From assembly GCA_015039465.1 (NCBI GenBank), contig MU130299.1, positions 53,231 to 117,230 on the forward strand: 64,000 nucleotides of DNA. Direction: 5' to 3'. The first letter of the stretch is position 1; every line of letters begins with the position of its first letter. The position numbers and the translations under genes were made by a program. Source of the DNA: Phlegmacium glaucopus. Taxonomy: Eukaryota; Basidiomycota; Agaricomycetes; Agaricales; Cortinariaceae. The notes beneath the pieces are model-generated. The model was not told the DNA's origin, did not search any database, and saw only the letters and a list, made by a program, of their open reading frames with translations. Of this stretch, positions 3,408 through 64,000 are shown piece by piece.

Positions 3408-4962
3408 TCATGGAACCCCGTACTCCTCATCCTCGTTCGTCCGAGAGCGTAATCCAGATAATCTACTTGTCCTTGGATTCGTGAGAGAGAAAGTCAAAGG
3501 AGGTAACATCGGTGAAGCAGGCGGTGATATGGGAGGTGGAGGTCCCGTTGGCGGTGAATCATATCTATGGTCACACGTTGATGTAAATTCCCTTGTATCA
3601 GACCGCACTGTGTCCGCAGTTGTGTCGACATCATAAGAATCACGACCAAGTCCGATCTGGACTATAATGAGCGTCGGGACAATTCCCTGGAACGAACACC
3701 TTGCAGTTAGTACCAGAAGATGTAATCAAATTAAGGAATAAAAATTACCACAACTTGGGCTAGCCCCGCGTCAAGGATGAGCTTGTGTAAATCAAGTTAG
3801 TCACAACAAATCATGCCAAGAACCTGCTACACACATCAGGAAAGACCACATCCAGTACGACATATATCGAATAAATAATGCTCGATTCCACTCTGGTGGA
3901 GCACGTAAGAAGGTTTAAGCTGGACCATGAAAAGCTCCCGAAACACAAACCACATACATGATTGCAATCATAGTATTGTATTTAGAAGAGAGTCGAGGCC
4001 CTAAAATAGAGCGGGCCTTCCGCGCAATCCACCAGATGCGACCGGCTAAAAACTCTTTCATGAGCCTGGAAAAGAACTGGAGTGGTGGGAAAAACACACC
4101 CATGAGTATAGTCACCAACAGATTCAAAGCGACAGTGGTAAACAGGAAAGCCACCAGTAGGGGTCGAAAGCGATATTCTTCTGTCGAGAGAGCAATGAAA
4201 GTATATCCACAGACTAGGGTTTAGGTATTAGCTAAATAGAAGTGTAGTATTAGAGGAGAGGTTACCGGATCCGCCAAGGAGCAAGAGGCAAGGAATGACG
4301 ATCACACGTTTACTATGATTCCATATCGTATGACAACGGTAGATCTGACGGCAGACAATGAGCAAAGGACCGTTAAGATTCTCGGAAAACATACCACCAG
4401 GCTGTCAGCAATAACGCTGGAGTTCGAAAATCTCTCATTGAGCAAACATCAACTGAGGTGAAAATAGTAGTTCACTTACTTGCTTGTAATATAGATAAGA
4501 AATTTGAAGTGCAGATCTGCCTCTGGTATACTGTTCTTTTTGGCGACGAACCAGAAAAGAAAGCTGAGCTCCAAGACGACGTCCACGGTGGCAAGAGCGA
4601 ACATCATCATAGCACAAGCTATCAACACTTTCCTTGTCGTTCTTTTGTTTCTTAGGAGAACACGAATGCAAATGGCAAAGAGAGTCGAGTAAATCCCTAC
4701 ATGTCGAATCGTCAGCACATGCAAATGAAAGGCTCTTCCTCAAAGATTTACCATATAGGAAAACTTCAAACTGTTCAACATACGTCAGACTCTACCCTAA
4801 GCGTTCAAGTGGGGCCGGCAGATAACGCACCATACATGCAGCACTATACTGATTCAAGGAATAATATTCTGAATCGTCATCTGCATTAGAAATGGCGATG
4901 GCTAAAGCGCCAAGGCGACCAGCAGACGCCTTGTAGTACTGCTTCAGCATGAATGTTGCCAT
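3408..4962 (-). CDS. Seven-helix membrane protein, tandem copy 1
   Basis: Member of an expanded, uncharacterised agaricomycete family of seven-transmembrane proteins (receptor-like topology, function unknown). The ATG at 4962 opens MATFMLKQYY. Exon 1 ends in a split His codon and continues at 4789 as LTYVEQFEVFLYG. Later exons give GIYSTLFAICIRVLL (TM), ALATVDVVLELSFLFWF (TM), VIADSL, IYRCHTIWNHSKRVIVIPC (TM), VCGYTFIALSTEE, the LLVAFLFTTVALNLLVTI helix, LAGRIWWIARKAR, ESSIIYSIYVVLDVVF, LILDAGLAQVV and GIVPTLIIVQIGLGR. The cytosolic tail is Pro/Ser-rich and ends EDEEYGVP. Family hallmarks are the IYRC motif after TM3, the GRIWW motif before TM6 and PTLIIVxxGLGR at the end of TM7. Two more copies follow in the same orientation, with introns at the same places, so this is a tandem array. 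Confidence 0.78.
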
Positions 4963-5152
4963 CGTCAAAAGAAATTTTGGGCAAGTGCCCTTGGGGAATG
5001 GTCGTTGTCAGGAAAGAAAGAAAAGGGGTGTTATCGTCTGTGAGAAAACAGCTCGGCTCAATGAACTAATTTTAGCATGAGCAAGTTTGTTCATGTTTGG
5101 CGCACACAAAGGTCTATCAGGTGCACACTGCACTTATAATACACGTCATAGG

Positions 5153-6599
5153 TCATTTCTTTGCAGATGGTTGGTCGGTGACCGTGACAACGACAGGAGC
5201 GGTACTACTAGTTCGCATATCCAATTGTGTAGGTACTGCTGTCGTGCTAAAGGTGGTGTTGTCCGAGTCATCAAATGCTTCACGGTGCAAGTTCCGTAAA
5301 ATGATAGTGGTAGCTGTGATGCCCTGGTTGACCTATGGTCAAATAGAGAAGGGAGTGACCTGATCTTACTCACCGCTATTTGGGTTAGACAAGCAGCTAA
5401 AACAAGCTGGAAATAAACTATCAGACTTTCAACAGAAACCAGGATGGGAACCCGACCACTGACTGAATGGAAAAGCAAGTAGAGAAAAATCGATACGCTA
5501 TATATTGCGCCTGAATCAAGACTTGCATAAAAATTGCGATCAGGCGACTGTCATTTGGAGTATCATAAATCGTCAACATACATCAAAGATATCACCAAGT
5601 TATTTATGGCGAACAGATCCATTCTCATAGGTGATCGAAATTTTCGCGAAGACCACCACATTCGAGTGACTAAATAACAACCAAAATTTGAGATGAACAG
5701 ACGGACAAATTTTCAAAAAAATAATCTTTCACCAATCAAAAGAGTTACAGAAAGATTTGCTGCCGCGGAGGTGATGAAGCTGGCTGCTAGAAGTCGGTCT
5801 CCAAGCTGAATAGCTGGTATAGATGCAAAGCTGACGACTGCAACTATGAGAACTATCGAGCTATCTTTGGGTAACAAGTCATACCAGTGCCACATATAGC
5901 TAACGCAATTGGAGCGATAAGGATGGGTTTATTCTTCCAAAAAGTATAACATCGACTGATCTGGAAGATATTCGGGGCGCTGAGACCTCGGCAGACCTTT
6001 GTTAGGGGACTCTCTTACCAGTAGACCACTGGCGATCGCACTGTCGAAGCTATCAGACGGTCAAATACCACAGAGACCACCGATACGTACTTGGCGAGAA
6101 TATATAGACCAAATTTGTACATCAGCGTCGTACTCCACGGATGGTGATGGTGTGGTACTCTATCACTTTGATTTTGTGTCGTTCCGTTGGATGCTGAATC
6201 CGAATCCGAGTCCGAATCGGAAGAAAGTGCATATTGGAAGAAGTAAAAATGACTGATGGCGATGTCTGCTGATGCAAGTAGAAATAGGGCGATTACAGCA
6301 CCCAGAAGCATTTTATTGACAAGTTTGCGCTTCAAGTTCGCAAGTATGATGGTGCAGTAACCGAACAGGACCACATAGACCCCTGATGCGAAGAAAAAGT
6401 TAAGCCTTAAACTTTCGAGATGAGAGACGATGAACTTAACCATAAAGGTATGTATCTACCTGAAAGAAACAAAAACTTTGATTAGGGTAATTCAACAGAC
6501 ACGCGGGGAAATTTTACACACCAGAATTGCTGGATATTTTGACTTGGAGGTCCATGGTTCCTTAAGAAATGGTATTAACGGTCGGGACGCCATTGCCAT
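5153..6599 (-). CDS. Seven-helix membrane protein, tandem copy 2
   Basis: Same family and exon plan as the neighbour at 3408-4962. The start is at 6599 (MAMASRP) or the second ATG at 6593. Exon 1 ends in phase 0 after PAIL. A 19-base exon (6441-6459, coding VDTYLYG with the next base) then leads into GVYVVLFGYCTIIL. Between the second and third helices there is an acidic-serine run (SDSDSDSDSA) in the loop. Further exons give the FDSAIAS segment, ISRCYTFWKNKPILIAP, FITSAAANLSVTLLIG, a diverged RMWW-type loop, ESLIVYFQLVLAACLTQIA and VNQGITATTIILRNLHREAF. The tail is Thr-rich and ends DQPSAKK. The last helix motif is less conserved than in copies 1 and 3 (TTIILRN instead of PTLIIVxxGLG). Ligand and signalling role are unknown. 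Confidence 0.75.
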
Positions 6600-7392
6600 A
6601 ACGAACAGTGGGCCGTGCACGTGGAGGCAACACTTGCCAGTGGAAGTAGGATGTAAGTGAGTCTAAAATCACCAATGACTAAAAACAAGCATTGTCTAAT
6701 GCCAAGTGCTGCGCGTAGGATAAACATAGACTACACAACGCTTAGTCCTCACAACGTTAAGTTGTGAAGAGAATCATTGATCCTAAATAGTAAACCGTTT
6801 CTAAAACGTGGGGAAGGGGTTAAGTTTAGTTGGAGCGTGTGATAATGACTAGATATAGCTTAACGGTAGTTAACGGTTCTCTGAAAGGCCGGCTTGGCGT
6901 GTTGGACTCGAGACTTGAAAAGAGAGTTCCTTGTGAACTCACACCTACAGCCAAAGCCCGCATATTACGGGCCTGTTTTCCCGATTTCCAAAACGGTCCA
7001 CCGGAAAGGTTGTAAACCATCAAGGTTGTCATCGATTGCCACCTATATATTGCCACTCATCATCAAACGCTTAGAGTTTAGTGCCTGACAATTGGGTGAC
7101 TTTCCATACAGTACCCCGCTTCCATGAGCGGGAGGTACGTTGGCATTTGGAAAACCTTGAATTACGTTAGCTGCATGATTGAGTCTTGGATATAAATCTT
7201 ACCCGACTCCAGTGCCAAGTTTGAGTTATTTATATGGGAGAGATAAGACGGGGAAGTTACTCTGCACAACATGACTGCGTTTTTGCGTTCCTGGTTTACA
7301 ACTTTGGGGGAGGATGAACTTGGAAGCCGATTGTGAATCACCTTTTTCTGCGAATATTCATGGTAGGCTTAGAGACAAGATTCAGTTCAATT

Positions 7393-8797
7393 CTATAAAG
7401 CATTGTCCCTTTCTATACAGGAAGATGTTTGCGCATTATTGAAAGCGGTAGGCTGCTCGGTTACAGGTGCTGCCCCGACGCTGCTGAAAATCGAGTCCAA
7501 TACTGGGGTGCTCGATTGCCTCTCTTCCTCACGATGAAGGGTGATGATCGTTTCAGCATCCAAGGTACATCTTCCCAGCCCAACTCGAATGATAATTAAT
7601 GTGGGGACGATACCCTTCCATGATAATTCTTGAACAAAGAGGTCTCTTCAAGTAAAGATAACTCACCACTACTTGAATGAGACCTGCATCCAAAACGACC
7701 TATGTAGTTCATTAAAAACAGACAACTCGATATAGTTAGTTATAACTTAGCTCACCGTAGGAACGAGCAAATCTAGTAGTATATACATCGAAAGTATAGC
7801 TCCGGACTCTATGCTGAAATGATGATTAGTCCGATTGACAGCGTCGATCATGGATGTCGCTTACATGACGGCAGAATATGAATAATACCTCCCAGCCATC
7901 TCGGAGCCAAGTATTGACCGAATTTGTCGAGCGTTCCAAATTATTTTGCCGGCTAAATGGTTCATTAGCACAGATAAAAATTATGAATTGAGTTTACCTG
8001 TAAGAATGGTGAGAGATGCATTGAGCGCAAAAACCAGCCACAGGTAGACAGGAAGCAGATCGTTGATGTCGTCGGAACGGGATATCACGAATAGATATCC
8101 ACACACTTGAGAAGTCAGTAAGTTTGCTTTCAAGAATAAATCACGATTCTTACTTGTTGAAAAGAGCAAAGCGATACATGGGATGATAATAAGGATTTTT
8201 TTGTAGCGCCATACAACATAACAACGATATAGCTATTTGAGGAGGAATGCATTTGAGTATAGTCTTGAAGCAGAGGACCGATTAGACCTTACAATTAGTG
8301 AATCGGCAATGACACTAGAATATTATGAGCCGCATCTCCATGACTTAAGAGGAAAATACGCACTTATTGGTAACATAAAATAGGTATTTGGGATACGCAT
8401 GATAGACGGGAAGTTCTTGTTGCGGGAACACATAGTGGAAGGCATAATATATTGTCATGCTGATGTCAGCTGTTGTAATGGCGAACATAGCCACAGTAAC
8501 CGCGAGGAAGAACCATTTTGAAGGTTTCCTGTTGGCCAAGAGCAGATAAACGGAAAATACAAAGAGAACATTGTATGCGCCTGCACCAAGGGAGTGGATA
8601 GTTAAGTGAAAGCGTCAGGATGGACAGTCGGAGGGCAGTCACCATATAACAAGATCTCAAACTTCAGAAACAGACATTTACTCTGAGCTAAGAGAACATG
8701 GAATAAAAGGTTGGACTTTTACCATATACGACGCAACATACTCCGAAAGACTTTTAGGATATTTCACGTCGTCGATGTCCAGTGTTTCTCCCGCCAT
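7393..8797 (-). CDS. Seven-helix membrane protein, tandem copy 3
   Basis: Third paralogue of the array. The ATG at 8797 opens MAGETLDIDDVKYP. Exon 1 ends after VASYM and joins a short exon SKCLFLKFEILLYG. The following exons encode AYNVLFVFSVYLLLANRKP (TM1), FFLAVTVAMFAITTADIS (TM2), VIADSLI (TM3), LYRCYVVWRYKKILIIIPC, VCGYLFVISRS, VYLWLVFALNASLTILTG, AGKIIWNARQIRSILGSE, SIESGAILSMYILLDLLVPT, VVLDAGLIQVV and GIVPTLIIIRVGLGR. The tail of about 50 residues ends CIERDNAL. It matches copy 1 more closely than copy 2 in the last helices. The matching intron positions in all three point to tandem duplication of an already intron-rich gene. Confidence 0.76.
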
Positions 8798-11700
8798 TGT
8801 AAATACGCAAGCTGAAAGGAATGGATAGTAGGAAAGGGCTTATCAGGCAACACAGTGACGGTAGGAGAGAATTATCCCCCACTGGCGGGACCCTTCTAGT
8901 GTTACCGAACAAATAGCACCGCCGACATTGGCAGGTCCAGTGCCGCACTGATTATGTATATGGGGCCTAGACTCAGGGATAGTTGTTAGCCATGACCTGC
9001 ATGAATGCACGGTGGCGTACTTTGTGAGTCGGTAACCTAGTCTGTTTTCACCTGCAGGGTAGTCTCCGACCTAATGATAATCATCACTAACAGGGGTCGA
9101 ATCGAATATTCGGGTCACAATAGACTCACGTGAGTTGGCCAAACTCAACCAAGCAATCACATTAATTAACGCGACGCGTGTACTGTACCGCTCATAACTA
9201 CTTTTCTTGGACTCGTTCGTCTGTAATATGCACATAATCTTTATTATTATCTATAAAACACACTCCTTCAAGTTTCCCAACCATCTTAGAAAAACCTTCT
9301 CTCTATGATAGCCCTGCAGGGCACAACTCATTCACAACATCCTGGCTCAAAGTTAACCAATACCCGTTGAACCGTGGTGTGGCTGGGTACTCTGGAGATG
9401 AAATATAGAAGTTGACATGATTGGCATTCCATGAGGGAGAGGTAGAAAATCCAAGGAGATTCACGCGATATGCTCGTTGATCTATACGGTTCGAGGTTAC
9501 ATCTGAACGTCAGCGTGCTACTTCACGCGATCACGACTGGCTAGCGAGGCTAGGTTCGAGGGGCGCGTGTGAAATCAGACTTAGATCTCAAATGACGGTC
9601 AAGAAGCTCAGTCCCTCATAGTACAGGTCCCACAGACGTATTCCAGAGGCAGTAGTTAGTGTCTTTCAAGTTGTAGTTACCAGTTTTGGCATGGTGGCCA
9701 AACCCCCAAAAATGTTCCCTTCATTCAGTTTAAATTGAATGATTCCATTTGTAAAAAGGAACCTCTTGGCAAGGCAGATATGAACCTGATCTGTTTATAT
9801 TCAAGTTGACTGGCGGTGGTTGAACGTTTGACGTGCAAGCTCATAGATACTCTGTTGGAATTTATTGAACTCAGGGATTAAGTATTTGATAATACGATTC
9901 ACGTTTGGCCAGCGCGGGTCGAGCGCCTTGCAAACGAGTGAGTAAAACGGTACACTACTACTACTACTCATATCCTATCGTGCTTACTAATCATTCCTAA
10001 TCGGGAAGACCTTTTCTAATGCTCGAAAATATTCAACATACTCCACGTAGAACAAGGTGCAGTCAAACCATAAGTACCTCTCAGTGGATGCCTGAGTCAT
10101 GTTGAGAGGCAACTTTTAGTGCAAAAGCCCTCAAAAGAAAAGTCTCTACGTCCACTGGCCCGTTATTTCGAATTGAGCGTGACTTGTATTGTGTGTCATT
10201 GTTTGGTTTGTGTACACGTTATTTTTGGAAAAATCTCTTTGCAATGAACCACCACCACCACGAACCCAGCTCTCGATTCTATACATACTTGAATATTTGA
10301 CTTTTCAAGCCCTCATCGCTCCAGGCACTCCTCCACTCGTATCAGCAGGTTTTCCCCTGGGGTCAATACCACCTCGGCCAACATGATCCACTTCTACGTA
10401 GAAGTGGTACCTAACCCTAAGTTTTTCGTGGACCACGGTTCTTTCCTCCTTTGCTCAAAGGGATACACTGGTGATATTTCGGTTTTGGAGCGACAACCGT
10501 CGACGGGTGATAGGATAGTAGCGTCAGAACCCCGATGCCAACTCGCGTCTTTGTTTCATGTCGGTGCCACAAGAGGCTTTCACTTCTGATGACGTCTTCG
10601 CCTTCTTCCTTAATCGCCTCTCCGGAAAGTGTTGGAGTTTGGTTACCTCTTTCCTGCGCCTCGGCTACAAACAGATCCATGTCTGCGTTGCCTCGGGACC
10701 CCCGTTCTCGCAATGTGCCACCTCATGAAATATGCACAGGACGCTGTGGCATGGAGCCCTCTGCATCCTCGCAAGATGTTTTGAGCCTTGTCGTATGCTT
10801 CCATATCATGTTGGTGGTATTTTTTTGCTTGATAAAGGGAAGGTGACGCCGGAAACACATTGGATCCATCGCCCTGATGCGAGAATTTGCGGACACAGCA
10901 CCAGAGAGGCGTCGCGGTACAGCCTATGGAAGATAGGTCGAAAATTGAAGAGGTCACGCACACTCTTAGCATACGAGTATGGCATACGTGTTTCCTGGGC
11001 CTCCGCACAGATCTTTTCGTGAGATCACATCTGCCCAAGGTCACTCCCTCATGCACTTGGTTCCTCGATGCCGATATCTACCGACATCGTCCATCCTACA
11101 CCCCGACAGAATATCACCTAGTTACCTCCCTACCATCTTTCGAGATGTCCAGAGCCTGCATACAGGAAGAGTGTGGTCTGGGCCTTTGGCTCTTTCCCTA
11201 GGACAACGATTGTCACCCTCGTGGTGGTAAGCGGATATCCTAAATCCCGGCAATGTTTCCGAAAATTCCATTTGCCGTGGACTACTGTGGTTCTTGTTGT
11301 CTCTCTTCGGAGAAGCGTGTCGAGAAAGGCTGCTGGTGAAGTTCAGAAGCGTCGGCGAGCGCATTGAAATTTTCATGGCTTACGTGGTCAAACTCCCGGG
11401 AACCAGGAATCCATGCTGAACGAACTGGGTATGGAGACAGACAGAAAAGTAAATATTGTCAGGTCCCTGAAGAACTTGAGCCACGAGGCGGACGCTTTGG
11501 TACAGCGATGCGTTCAAAGCGCAGAGGTTTGGCCACTGTGGTCTCCCATATTTCCTCCTTACTTGATTTTCCATGGGTCACTTTTCGTTTTGGATGTTCC
11601 CTGCGCCCCCAACATCGAATCTTTCAAAACAGGAAGATCGACCGTGAATGCTTTCTCTGGATGTTACTCAACTCTCGCTGCGGTTGGTTTTCTTGACCTC

Positions 11701-12914: not shown

Positions 12915-15035
12915 ATGTTGCTCTCCAGGTCGAGAAGGTCCTCATTGTGTTTTCTGCTTATCACCGCTATCCTATTCATCTTCTTTCAACGGTTCCGTGA
13001 ACCCGAATTGGAACTTGAAGATGAAATAGCGCTGCCTCATTTTGAACACCCTCCTCCTGTGGGGTCAGATACTTCAGTGGATACTCCAGTTCTTGAATGG
13101 AAACCTGCTCCTGAGCGGAAACCTCAGCCAGTCCAAGGAAAACATAAACTCCGTTCAGATGGTTTGATGCAGGTCAACATGGACGGAGCTCATCCCATCT
13201 ACGAGTTGATATCCAGGGCGGAGATAGAATGGGAGGAGAAGCTACAACGTGCAAGCAAGTCCTTTGAGCAGGTTGTGCAAGAATACAAGGCAAGGTATCA
13301 TCGCGCGCCTCCAAAAGGTTTTGATCTATGGTAAATATGTCCTGAGCCTTCTTATCACCGGATAACAATCTCATGGGACCTACGTAGGTGGGACTACGCG
13401 GTTGAACACAATGTCCAGCTACCGGACGAGTATGACCAAATCTACCATGACCTAGAGCCGTTCTGGGGCATTGAACCAGCGGATCTCATCAAGATACACG
13501 AGGAAAACGAATTAAAGAAGGACTCTTATACGATTGGAAAGAACGAAACCGGCCAAGTAGAAATTTTGACATACGCATTCGCGGAAGGCAAATATGATCA
13601 ATTAATAGTAGGCACTCGAAAAATCCTCGAAATGTTCAAGGATATACAGCAACATTTACCCCCCTTTCGTATGACCATATCACCTCATGATAGCCCCAAT
13701 CGGATGACGGATTATGGCGTCAAGAATGCTGCTCTTGAAGCCGCAGCCAGCCAAACGTGTGAGTTATCCTGCCTAATGACAATGAATTCTGACTTACTTT
13801 CAGCAGATATCGACCGAGCCTCATTGCCAAAAACAAATAATATAGGCTGGGTATCTGCTTGCCCCCCGAATTCCCCCGCCCGTCGGAAACCCATCAACTT
13901 CGACAGCCCACCCGTTCGTCCCACAACAAAGACATTCATATCGGACCACCTCCGGAGCATGGACCCTTGTAATCACCCAAGCCACTTCTACCACCACGGA
14001 CAATTTCTATCACACCACATCGGTCCTAGCCCACAGCCTGTCTTAGTACCTGAATTCTCTTATTGTTCGACGATGCTACACCACAACATCCGCATCCCAG
14101 TACCCTACGCATGGGTAGAAGATATCTACCCACGGTCGGACGATCCGGAATGGGAGGACAAGATCGACGAGCGTTTGTTATGGCGTGGGAGCAATACAGG
14201 AATATTCCACAGCTCAACATCGCGATGGGAGCACTCACATCGGAATTTTCTCGTGGACTTCGCTAATGATCTGGGGGGAATTTTGGATATACTTCCACCT
14301 GATAGATCTAGGAATGAGAAGTTGGTTGAGATGATAGAGATGAGGAAGGCGAGAATCAATCCTGCTGTTATGGATGTTGCATTTGCAGGGCAGCCAAATT
14401 CGTGTGCACCCGATGTTTGTGACATTTTGAAGGATGCTTATCCATGGCGCGAGAGACAGAGTAACAAGCACGCGGGGAATTATAAGTATGTCATCGATGT
14501 GAGTATCTCTTCTGTCCTTTTCGGATTTCACAGATTGACATTATGATATCAAGGTGGACGGAAATGGCTGGTCAGGTCGTTTCAAGAGACTCATGACATC
14601 TAACTCTTTAATATTCAAATCCACAATATACCCCGAATGGTTAGCATCATAATCCAGCTGTTTGTGTCCTTTGAACTCTATGTACTCAGATTCATGGTCT
14701 GCCAGGTATGCTGATCGTGTTGCCCCTTGGGTACACTATATCCCTATCCAAATTGACCTTTCTGATCTTCACGATGCATTGCTCTTCTTTCGAGGGGATG
14801 CAAATGGGGTCGGCTCACACGAATACGTGGCCCGTAAAATAGCTTCAGCAGGACGACAGTGGAGTAAGCGGTTTTGGCGGAAGGAGGATTTGGTGTCGTA
14901 TTTCTTCAGGTAATCCAAATTTATCCACATATTTATCGTATCACTTATCCTGGTAGGCTTACGCTGGAATATGCTCGACTGATGAGCGTCAATCGGGAAT
15001 CAATGACTTATCAGGGGGACGGAATATCTATCTAA
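12915..15035 (+). CDS. GT90 (CAP10-like) glycosyltransferase, type II membrane protein
   Basis: Glycosyltransferase family 90 protein, the family of cryptococcal Cap59-associated CAP10 and animal protein O-glucosyl/xylosyltransferases. It is likely Golgi-resident. Five or six exons: 12915-13330, 13388-13758, about 13804-14498, 14554-14639, 14706 onward, and a last exon after an intron near 14911, ending at TAA 15033-15035. N-terminus: short basic stretch, then a signal anchor (LCFLLITAILFIFFQRF). A Pro-rich acidic stem follows, then the catalytic region. Family landmarks: LLWRGSNTGIF followed by a His/Arg-rich RWEHSHRNFLVDFAND; YKYVIDVDGNGWSGRFKRLM (sugar-nucleotide region); SLIFKSTIYPEW joined to YADRVAPWVHYIPIQIDLSD; then ALLFFRGD. 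All expected blocks are present and in order, so the gene looks intact. Donor sugar and acceptor are unknown. Confidence 0.88.
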
Positions 15036-61302: not shown

Positions 61303-62009
61303 TGGAAAGTACAGGGTATGCACCTTTTTTCCTAAAGCATGGCCAAATGCCAAGAGTGATGATTTGGAATTCCCCCAAGCCTACTGAATATTCAAATGTA
61401 AGAGTTTTTGCACAGAAGAGAAAATTAGCCTTGATCTCAGTTGTTACATTCCATTATATGTGACTCCGGTCCAGCTCCGTCGGAGTTGTCTCCGGTACTC
61501 TGTACTCTGTTCCAGTGTCTTCCCTTGTTTCTGGATCTACTCTTCCTACGTCCAACTCCGAGACTTCTCCATATTATTCTGGCTCTTCCGACGATACTCC
61601 AAACTCATTACCACATCTTTGACATAACAACTATTTCTTTATCATCACTTTCCCACTATCAGTCATCACACCCACTATGGATTATTCACCCAAGAATGCA
61701 GGACCTTCCAGGAGCAGAACGCAGCACTTAATATTTATCTTTTATATTTTGGTTGCTATTCCTTTTATTATTTAAGTATTCGAAACTTGTATGTATTCCT
61801 CAGTTCAAATATCAACTTAGTTTCCTCCTCCTATTCTTCCTCTAAGTTCCTGCAACTTCCGGTTCCACTCCGTTCTGTTCTTACTCTGAAAATTAGGACA
61901 TGAAGGTTTAGGGTAGCACAGCACATACACTGAGGCTAAAGTCCTTATCTGTTCCGTGGTTCCGTTCCAATCAAACTCTGTCCGATACTCCGGAACAGAG
62001 TTTCCAAAC

Positions 62010-62250
62010 TTAACATCAGTGCACAATAGCATAATTGCCACATGTGTGAAACAATCCAGGAATGCAAATCGAGAAAGACAGATAGTACCTTTGAAAGAAG
62101 GAGACTTTGTGTATTTGTCTACCAAGAATATTACCTTCACAAAAGGACTAGCTATAAAATTAATACCAAAATACATAGGTCCATATAAGATTTTGGAAGA
62201 TTTCAATAATCAGTCATTTAGAATTGATTTACCATCACATCTCACATCAG
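62010..62250 (+). pseudogene. Ty3/gypsy retrotransposon polyprotein fragment (end of integrase region)
   Basis: The plus-strand frame reads ANRERQIVPLKEGDFVYLST then KNITFTKGLAIKLIPKYIGP and FRIDLPSHL. This is the GPF/GPY-like end of a gypsy integrase (EGDxVYLSTKN ... KxxPKYIGPYKILE). The 5' part of the element is missing or replaced by unrelated DNA before about 62000. The frame is then interrupted at 62245 by the hairpin element. A continuing part of the same polyprotein is present only in the back-to-front segment at 63390-63703. A dead fragment either way. Confidence 0.8.
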
Positions 62251-62334
62251 AAAAAAATAACCTTGGCCTGGCTGGCTCTGGCTGCCCTGGCCAGCCCTGG
62301 CCAGCCCTGAACATCTTTGGCTAGGTTTAAAAAT
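62245..62334. repeat. Left arm of a foldback element, matched by a parallel (non-reversed) complement at 63704-63793
   Basis: Begins catcagaaaaaaataacc, is rich in ggccagccctgg blocks and ends ctaggtttaaaaat. All 90 bases are complementary, in the same left-to-right order, to 63704-63793. Natural inverted repeats are antiparallel, so this relation signals that one of the two copies has been turned back to front. In the true sequence this is probably one end of a long hairpin element of about 390 bases inserted in the gypsy fragment. Confidence 0.85.
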
Positions 62335-64000
62335 TCTAACTAACGAAACAACATAGTGATCGGTTCCCTGTTTGCCTACCATCTACAATTCCTCGTACAG
62401 CTATCACATTTACTATCTGTTGTATCACCTTCTGTAACTCCTATACTACTCGCTACTCCTACAATAGCAACTTGCTTACCAAAACAACTGGTCCTTGCGC
62501 TAAGTCCCGGCGAAGGTTTTATCCATTCGTTTAAGTTTCAGGCGAATAAAAGTACTACCGCTGAAAATTCGAAAGAAGAGTACGATGGTTAGTCATAACC
62601 ACGTGTTGTCGCGGGCTTATTCAACACCACGGATAGAAGTGCAACGACCTTCACAAGTACGAAGAAGACCAAAAACTTTCGAACTCTCCATCGTATCAGA
62701 AGTTTATGTTTACGAACAAGAAGGCATTCTAACAATGTTACTCCTCCACGGTTCGGTGTGACAAGACCTCACTATATTTTTAGAAGCTCCTGTTGTCCCA
62801 GCAGTCTAAATTACTACACCAGTGGGCATCTCGACCCTTACTTTGAACTCTACGACTACAAACCGTACACCTATCCAAGGCCACAACTTTCGTCACTGTT
62901 TCAACTACATAGGGTAACCTTATGGACCTTTTAACAGTTCCAACAGTGGTAGTGTTTCTTGGAACAACTTCCGGTCCATTAAGTACTAAACAGGACGTAC
63001 TTGTATGGTCGTTGTTGCCTCTAGACCTGACAACTATCGTATGAGCCATACCGACTCTACATTTTTTACTCCCACAACCTACGGCCCATTTATTCCGTAC
63101 CATCTCAGTTCCCATAACTCTTACGTTTTTTCCATCGCGTTACTGGACATCAAGACTCCCTTATACCTTTCCTTCTTACCTATTTCTTATTTTCCTTACG
63201 GTTACAGATATATGTTTCAAGGACAACACAAAGGACTATTCTATTACCACAAAAAACCTATCCTAAAGTACCCCACACTAAAACAACTATTCCTCTTTAC
63301 CTCTTACCTTACGTCACCTCACAACCTCATACCTCCCGGTGTACTTTCTATACACCGGGGATCCTTCTGAACTCCCAGAAGGGCTCCACCTAACGACGTA
63401 GGATGTCCGTTAAGACGATACGATAATTGTGGGTTATTTGATTTTATAAGGAGATCGCGGACGTCTACGAAATAAACCATTATACCGTAGGTTCAGTGTA
63501 GTGGGCTAAAGGTGAAATAAAGTTTTTAGTGTAAAAGTGGGTTAAGTCGTACACTAAATTAATTGAGATGTCGGGTAAGTAAAAGATATAGGTCTAATAG
63601 TGGATAAACCCATAGGTAACTAGGGCCTTTGTCAACCAGTAGTAATCCATGTACATAAGAATTGTTCCTTCTTACCTTATGTGATACGTGGGGGGAGACG
63701 AACGTAGTCTTTTTTTATTGGAACCGGACCGACCGAGACCGACGGGACCGGTCGGGACCGGTCGGGACTTGTAGAAACCGATCCAAATTTTTAGACTTTT
63801 TTTACATTGTTTAGTGTCTTTATAAATATCATGGGTTAAGGTTTTTTTTCATTTGTTAATGTATTCTGTCTACGACTCTATAAGTTCTATAATTTAACAA
63901 ATTTTTATAACTTATAGAGTCGTAGACAGAATACATTAACAAATGAAAAAAACCTTAACCCATGATATTTATAAAGACACTAAACAATCTGAAAAAAGTC
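62335..64000. other. 1,666-bp terminal segment written back to front without complementing (artefact)
   Basis: No sensible frame exists on either strand. When the string is simply reversed, the base after 62334 becomes ctgaaaaaagtc, exactly the continuation the hairpin partner demands. Read that way, a gypsy polyprotein tail appears: coding-like KQRGVHSVFHSSLLRI and VPNDDQLFPG, then NEWAVELIKSH and IFEIKWKSGDVTWMPYYQI (roughly 63703 back to 63390). Another open frame of about 97 codons follows (MPYLPGIQHPHFLHLSH..., back to about 62800). The segment ends exactly at the window edge. Open frames listed in the normal orientation here, such as 63005-63370, are meaningless. Confidence 0.88.
63794..64000. 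repeat. Antiparallel inverted repeat at the window end (centre of the foldback element)
   Basis: 63794-63897 and 63898-64000 are reverse complements with few mismatches (outer blocks around gactttttt/aaaaaagtc, inner actctataagt/acttatagagt). They form the middle of the hairpin element: the full hairpin in corrected order is the 90-base left arm, then these two arms, then the 90-base right arm, about 390 bases in all. No coding content. Confidence 0.85.

Follow-up and report, generated by a model that had tools for sequence, protein, structure and literature searches.

Ordinary inversion misassemblies put true sequence into the wrong form between sharp ends, and in this they resemble the block described here, positions 62335–64000 of a 64-kb stretch of Phlegmacium glaucopus DNA (the window). 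An inversion misassembly, however, keeps its strand polarity and aligns to its relatives, whereas this block aligns only after its letters are reversed as a string. Errors of long-read and graph-based gap filling (PBJelly, FGAP; AllPathsLG combined with PBJelly) likewise lie at contig ends, scaffold gaps and repeats. The available text on a related agaric describes AllPathsLG assemblies into which PBJelly had patched error-corrected PacBio data (PMC12923307), which indicates that gap-patching steps are in use, and lenient gap filling can give incorrect sequence, as an excerpt of another study states (PMC6733440). In contrast to our block, the gap-filling errors covered in the available portions of this literature include no backwards-written fills, and those portions tie none of the programs to the present assembly. 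The same string operation appears in the excerpted methods of an alignment study, where reversed, non-complemented sequence serves as a negative control (PMC3242753); that control, as far as the excerpt goes, is deliberate and without true homology, whereas our block sits in an assembly and yields matches of 92–99% upon reversal. The genome search used for this analysis includes a control column of the same kind. Within the accessible text of the open-licence literature, no report of backwards-written gap fills was found, and the phrase 'reversed but not complemented' leads to reporter assays.

The window corresponds to bases 53231–117230 of contig C105 in an assembly of 60.5 Mb and 259 contigs. 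We propose, with a probability of about 0.97, that its last 1,666 bases are a systematic assembly error, namely a gap fill written reversed, rather than biology. Direct comparison within the window confirmed the claim of the initial annotation that 62245–62334 is the exact same-direction complement of 63704–63793 (90 of 90 bases), a match that is not extendable by one base at either end. This pair is the sole parallel-complement match of at least 16 bases in the 64-kb window, with four 16-base rows all falling inside it, and by hand arithmetic the chance of a 90-base match of this type in 64 kb is far below 1e-40. Natural inversion, duplication and transposition were rejected, because each preserves strand polarity and what we see is a parallel complement instead of a direct or reverse-complement match. 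Neither replication nor repair nor transposition is known to include a reaction that joins strands with the wrong polarity.

The block also stands out by composition. We used a strand-symmetric 6-mer log-ratio, in which each word is set against its reversed form and counted on both strands. In a two-fold held-out scoring, 36 ordinary chunks of 1,666 bases all scored at least -0.004, while the segment scored -0.133 and -0.114. A two-state model trained on bases 1–62000 called a single reversed block in the window, at 62320–64000, the first 62,000 bases being in-sample; in an in-sample test, spiked reversals of 1,666 bases were found 100 times out of 100, and the called starts were off by 28 bases in the median.

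The seam at 62334/62335 cuts through a 387-bp palindromic, MITE-like element. Its first 90 bases are correctly written on the plus strand at 62245–62334, and the other 297 bases lie backwards, on neither strand, at 63704–64000, with the far arm at 63704–63793 and the centre at 63794–64000. Aligned to its own reverse complement, the element is identical in 374 of 389 columns; CA stands on both sides of it in the window, and a single CA is present at the empty site on contig C145. The element is short, has inverted ends, a CA target duplication and many copies, as in a palindromic MITE, for which no coding capacity is needed.

Reversal of the block and its complementation in place yield the same duplex, and the 90-base identity alone cannot separate them. 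The two readings differ over the seam, where the question is whether the far end rather than the near end of the segment belongs at 62335, and ordinary copies of the palindrome elsewhere in the assembly bear on this directly. With the block reversed in place, the copies at six of six loci aligned over all 387 positions through the seam; with the block complemented in place, none of the same six crossed it. The segment as written was rejected on the same count (0/6). In both failing models the first 90–91 positions of the palindrome matched by themselves, and at two loci the remainder matched separately as well. The join at 62334 is thus seamless once the block is read backwards, as had been claimed. 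An ordinary copy of the surrounding retrotransposon on C145 (L025), which lacks the palindrome, shows the order as well: the counterpart of window 62016–62244 (96% over 229 bases) is followed directly by the reversed string from its position 298 onward (92%), an order and orientation of the tail that agrees with reversal. Complementation in place is therefore very improbable, and the operation proposed in the initial annotation, reversal without complementing, is borne out by the parallel complement, by the order of the C145 copy and by all six palindrome copies.

Read backwards, the whole block has ordinary counterparts. The reversed string matched ordinary genomic copies over its full length in three pieces, at reversed positions 1–297, 298–1392 and 1389–1666. 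For the first piece, the best of the matches listed were 95–98% identical; the second was 92% identical to the C145 copy and, from position 435, 87% identical to a copy on C113; for the third, ordinary copies reached 99%. The third piece corresponds to an interspersed repeat, about 278 bp long and common in the assembly, that stands backwards at 62335–62612 with no strand assignable, and the second to the tail of a gypsy-type retrotransposon, likewise backwards and strandless, at 62609–63703 (92% over 1,100 aligned positions to the ordinary copy on C145).

On the correctly written side of the seam, a piece of the gypsy integrase C-terminal domain (Pfam SH3_Tf2-1, PF24626) lies on the plus strand at 62025–62249 and scores 45.1 bits (cut-off 30), which places a gypsy-type pol domain at the locus. 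It covers profile positions 1–48 of 64 and is cut at 62245 by the palindrome; in the C145 copy the same domain scores 61.4 bits and extends over profile positions 1–61 of 64. The initial annotation had described a proper gypsy polyprotein tail in the reversed block. This holds at the level of DNA similarity to ordinary copies, on which the identity of the retrotransposon tail rests, since a Pfam search of the 158-residue reversed reading returned no gypsy domain, only an unrelated sub-threshold match (14.2 bits, cut-off 27). The same search of the three as-written frames of the segment returned no domain. Immediately upstream, window 61501–62016 holds another dispersed repeat, roughly 515 bases long, whose copies in the assembly number in the dozens and are about 90% alike.

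The block ends exactly at the last base of the window, which had been pointed out before and which could suggest a change planted in, or made during preparation of, the window alone. A search of the assembly itself, however, retrieved segment 62335–64000 with the same letters. From base 117231 of contig C105, directly after window position 64000, the contig reads N for 2,418 bases, so the coincidence is true and its cause is the edge of the N run. We read this run as an assembly gap, although a gap and withheld sequence look alike in the letters; runs of 100 N at two other loci (L021, L035) resemble assembly gaps. Together with the backwards copies on many other contigs, the N run at the next base and the presence of the block in the assembly leave a window-only change with hardly any probability. 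For the same reasons, the suggestion of a deliberate insertion found no support. The attribution to an artefact, by contrast, was upheld by the restored seam, the adjoining N run and the return of the error elsewhere in the assembly, each of them directly observed.

Searching the assembly with the segment as written gave 44 match rows (42 candidates, of which 40 were scored). The window itself accounts for two of these rows, and three others are second hits at places that are palindromic, so that by our own count 39 other match places are left; most of the matches listed are 87–99% alike. This ran against the forecast that the as-written segment would match nothing. Taken literally, it is also the kind of genomic match that the initial annotation had held to speak against its reading, but the examined matches turned out to sit within backwards-written sequence in all 11 regions inspected. 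These regions contain 13 of the 39 places, and in 13 of 13 the match lay inside a block that the composition model called reversed; it is on this ground that the as-written matches indicate a recurring error. As the regions were chosen for their as-written match, the 13 of 13 speaks to larger backwards blocks around the matches and not to how frequent such blocks are. At 15 loci with ordinary copies, nine of which belonged to the training set, one reversed call was made (125 bases, away from the match), at the only one of the 15 that has N. Parallel complements of at least 20 bases were found in 6 of the 11 as-written regions versus none of the 15 ordinary-copy loci.

N runs are present in 9 of the 11 regions. 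The fetched stretches of C226 and C206 contain no N, and there the link to a gap depends on supposing that the gap has been closed.

Backwards copies are a minority among the sites of both repeats in the block. A 39-base pattern from the palindrome had 141 ordinary and 6 backwards sites out of 147 (palindromic copies being counted up to twice, and the window copy included), and for the 278-bp repeat a 41-base pattern, with up to 3 mismatches, had 257 ordinary and 18 backwards sites out of 275 (window copy included). These 4–7% are not a genome-wide rate, because gap fills can be expected to contain more than their share of repeats. Among random 10-kb stretches (6 of 60 drawn, about 50 kb of letters, a sample too small for a rate) there was no true backwards block, the stretch next to a run of 100 N (L035) included, and the lone call (L034) fell in a stretch with 9,850 N out of 10,000 and had a mean score of -0.001. 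A 37-base pattern from the repeat at 61501–62016 was too specific, giving 1 ordinary and 0 backwards sites. An 18S rRNA pattern had 0 ordinary and 0 backwards sites in the assembly and hence offered no check independent of repeat families, and two reversed 16S rRNA patterns had 0 matches in the genome_contigs collection, a search that had no forward control and has little bearing on how prevalent the error is in prokaryotes.

Copies of the as-written form at several dozen places, 39 besides the window and mostly 87–99% alike among those listed, might be expected of a real, spreading biological family of reversed, non-complemented sequences. Against such a family stands the polarity argument from general knowledge given above. 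The ordinary form is also far commoner (141 versus 6 and 257 versus 18 sites), the reversed string has ordinary copies that are 97–99% alike, N adjoins in 9 of 11 regions, and the position at which the palindrome breaks varies from place to place. We regard a biological family as the least credible of the alternatives, with next to no probability.

To compare these breaks, we expressed their coordinates in the 387-bp register of the element; the palindrome gives a second register, and the one in which the parts are consecutive was chosen. The correct and backwards parts meet at 90/91 in the window, at about 46/50 on C171, at 282/283 on C240 and at about 248/251 on C6. On C120, the backwards part runs to 113 and the correct part resumes from 224, past a 100-N run, and on C138 the backwards part holds palindrome positions 1–99. 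Such differing breaks fit arbitrary contig ends inside a hairpin and not one mobile unit. The near-perfect 387-bp palindrome has many copies in the genome, and contigs end within it at several places.

The largest parallel complement that we found lies on C240 (L019, C240:495000-504900), where the fill at 4743–7423 and the flank to its right, 7424–9901, are parallel complements around the palindromic element, 99.8% identical and ungapped over 2,478 bases and reaching the end of the fetched stretch. Here, extension seems to have passed the hairpin and returned on the opposite strand before being written backwards. Since this fill folds back onto the flank beside it, some fills are wrong in content as well as in form. 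On C226 (L023, C226:180000-189900), 4–1106 and 3862–4968, as well as 247–1106 and 1106–1967, are parallel complements of the same flank, 92–93% alike with small gaps and with no N in the stretch, and a direct repeat of 97.6% over 1,278 bases lies between the two blocks. Our guess is that this is a closed, repeated, backwards fill.

In the reading that we prefer, a reversed gap fill, the contig of the window would have ended inside the 90-base arm of the palindromic transposon; gap filling would then have appended, as a reversed string, the true sequence of the next 1,666 bases downstream, and the remainder of the gap would have been left as N. An equivalent wording is that a minus-strand reading was complemented without being reversed, and the error would be the same whichever edge of a gap was filled. 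The block probably stems from a gap filler or a contig-end extender, and one strand-handling coding error in that step may have produced all such blocks. That a silent coding error in gap filling wrote many fills backwards, and that such fills stand unnoticed in further public assemblies that went through this step, is conceivable, with the odds slightly against it; for the two repeats counted here, backwards sites amount to a few percent. Segment 62335–64000 has no biological significance, and its significance is one of data quality. At the edges of gaps, blocks of this type ruin genes and repeats; they add to what is counted as 'unique' or 'orphan' sequence and escape checks based on alignment. 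Ordinary alignment cannot find them, but scans for parallel complements and for reversed k-mers can, as they did here.

Elsewhere in the window, an open frame on the plus strand at 13335–14546 encodes a glycosyltransferase of family 90 (CAP10-like). The protein, which by its matches places the DNA in an agaric mushroom, is 77% identical to an unnamed metagenome protein, 67% to proteins of Galerina marginata and Crassisporium, and 66% to those of Pholiota, Gymnopilus and Flammula.
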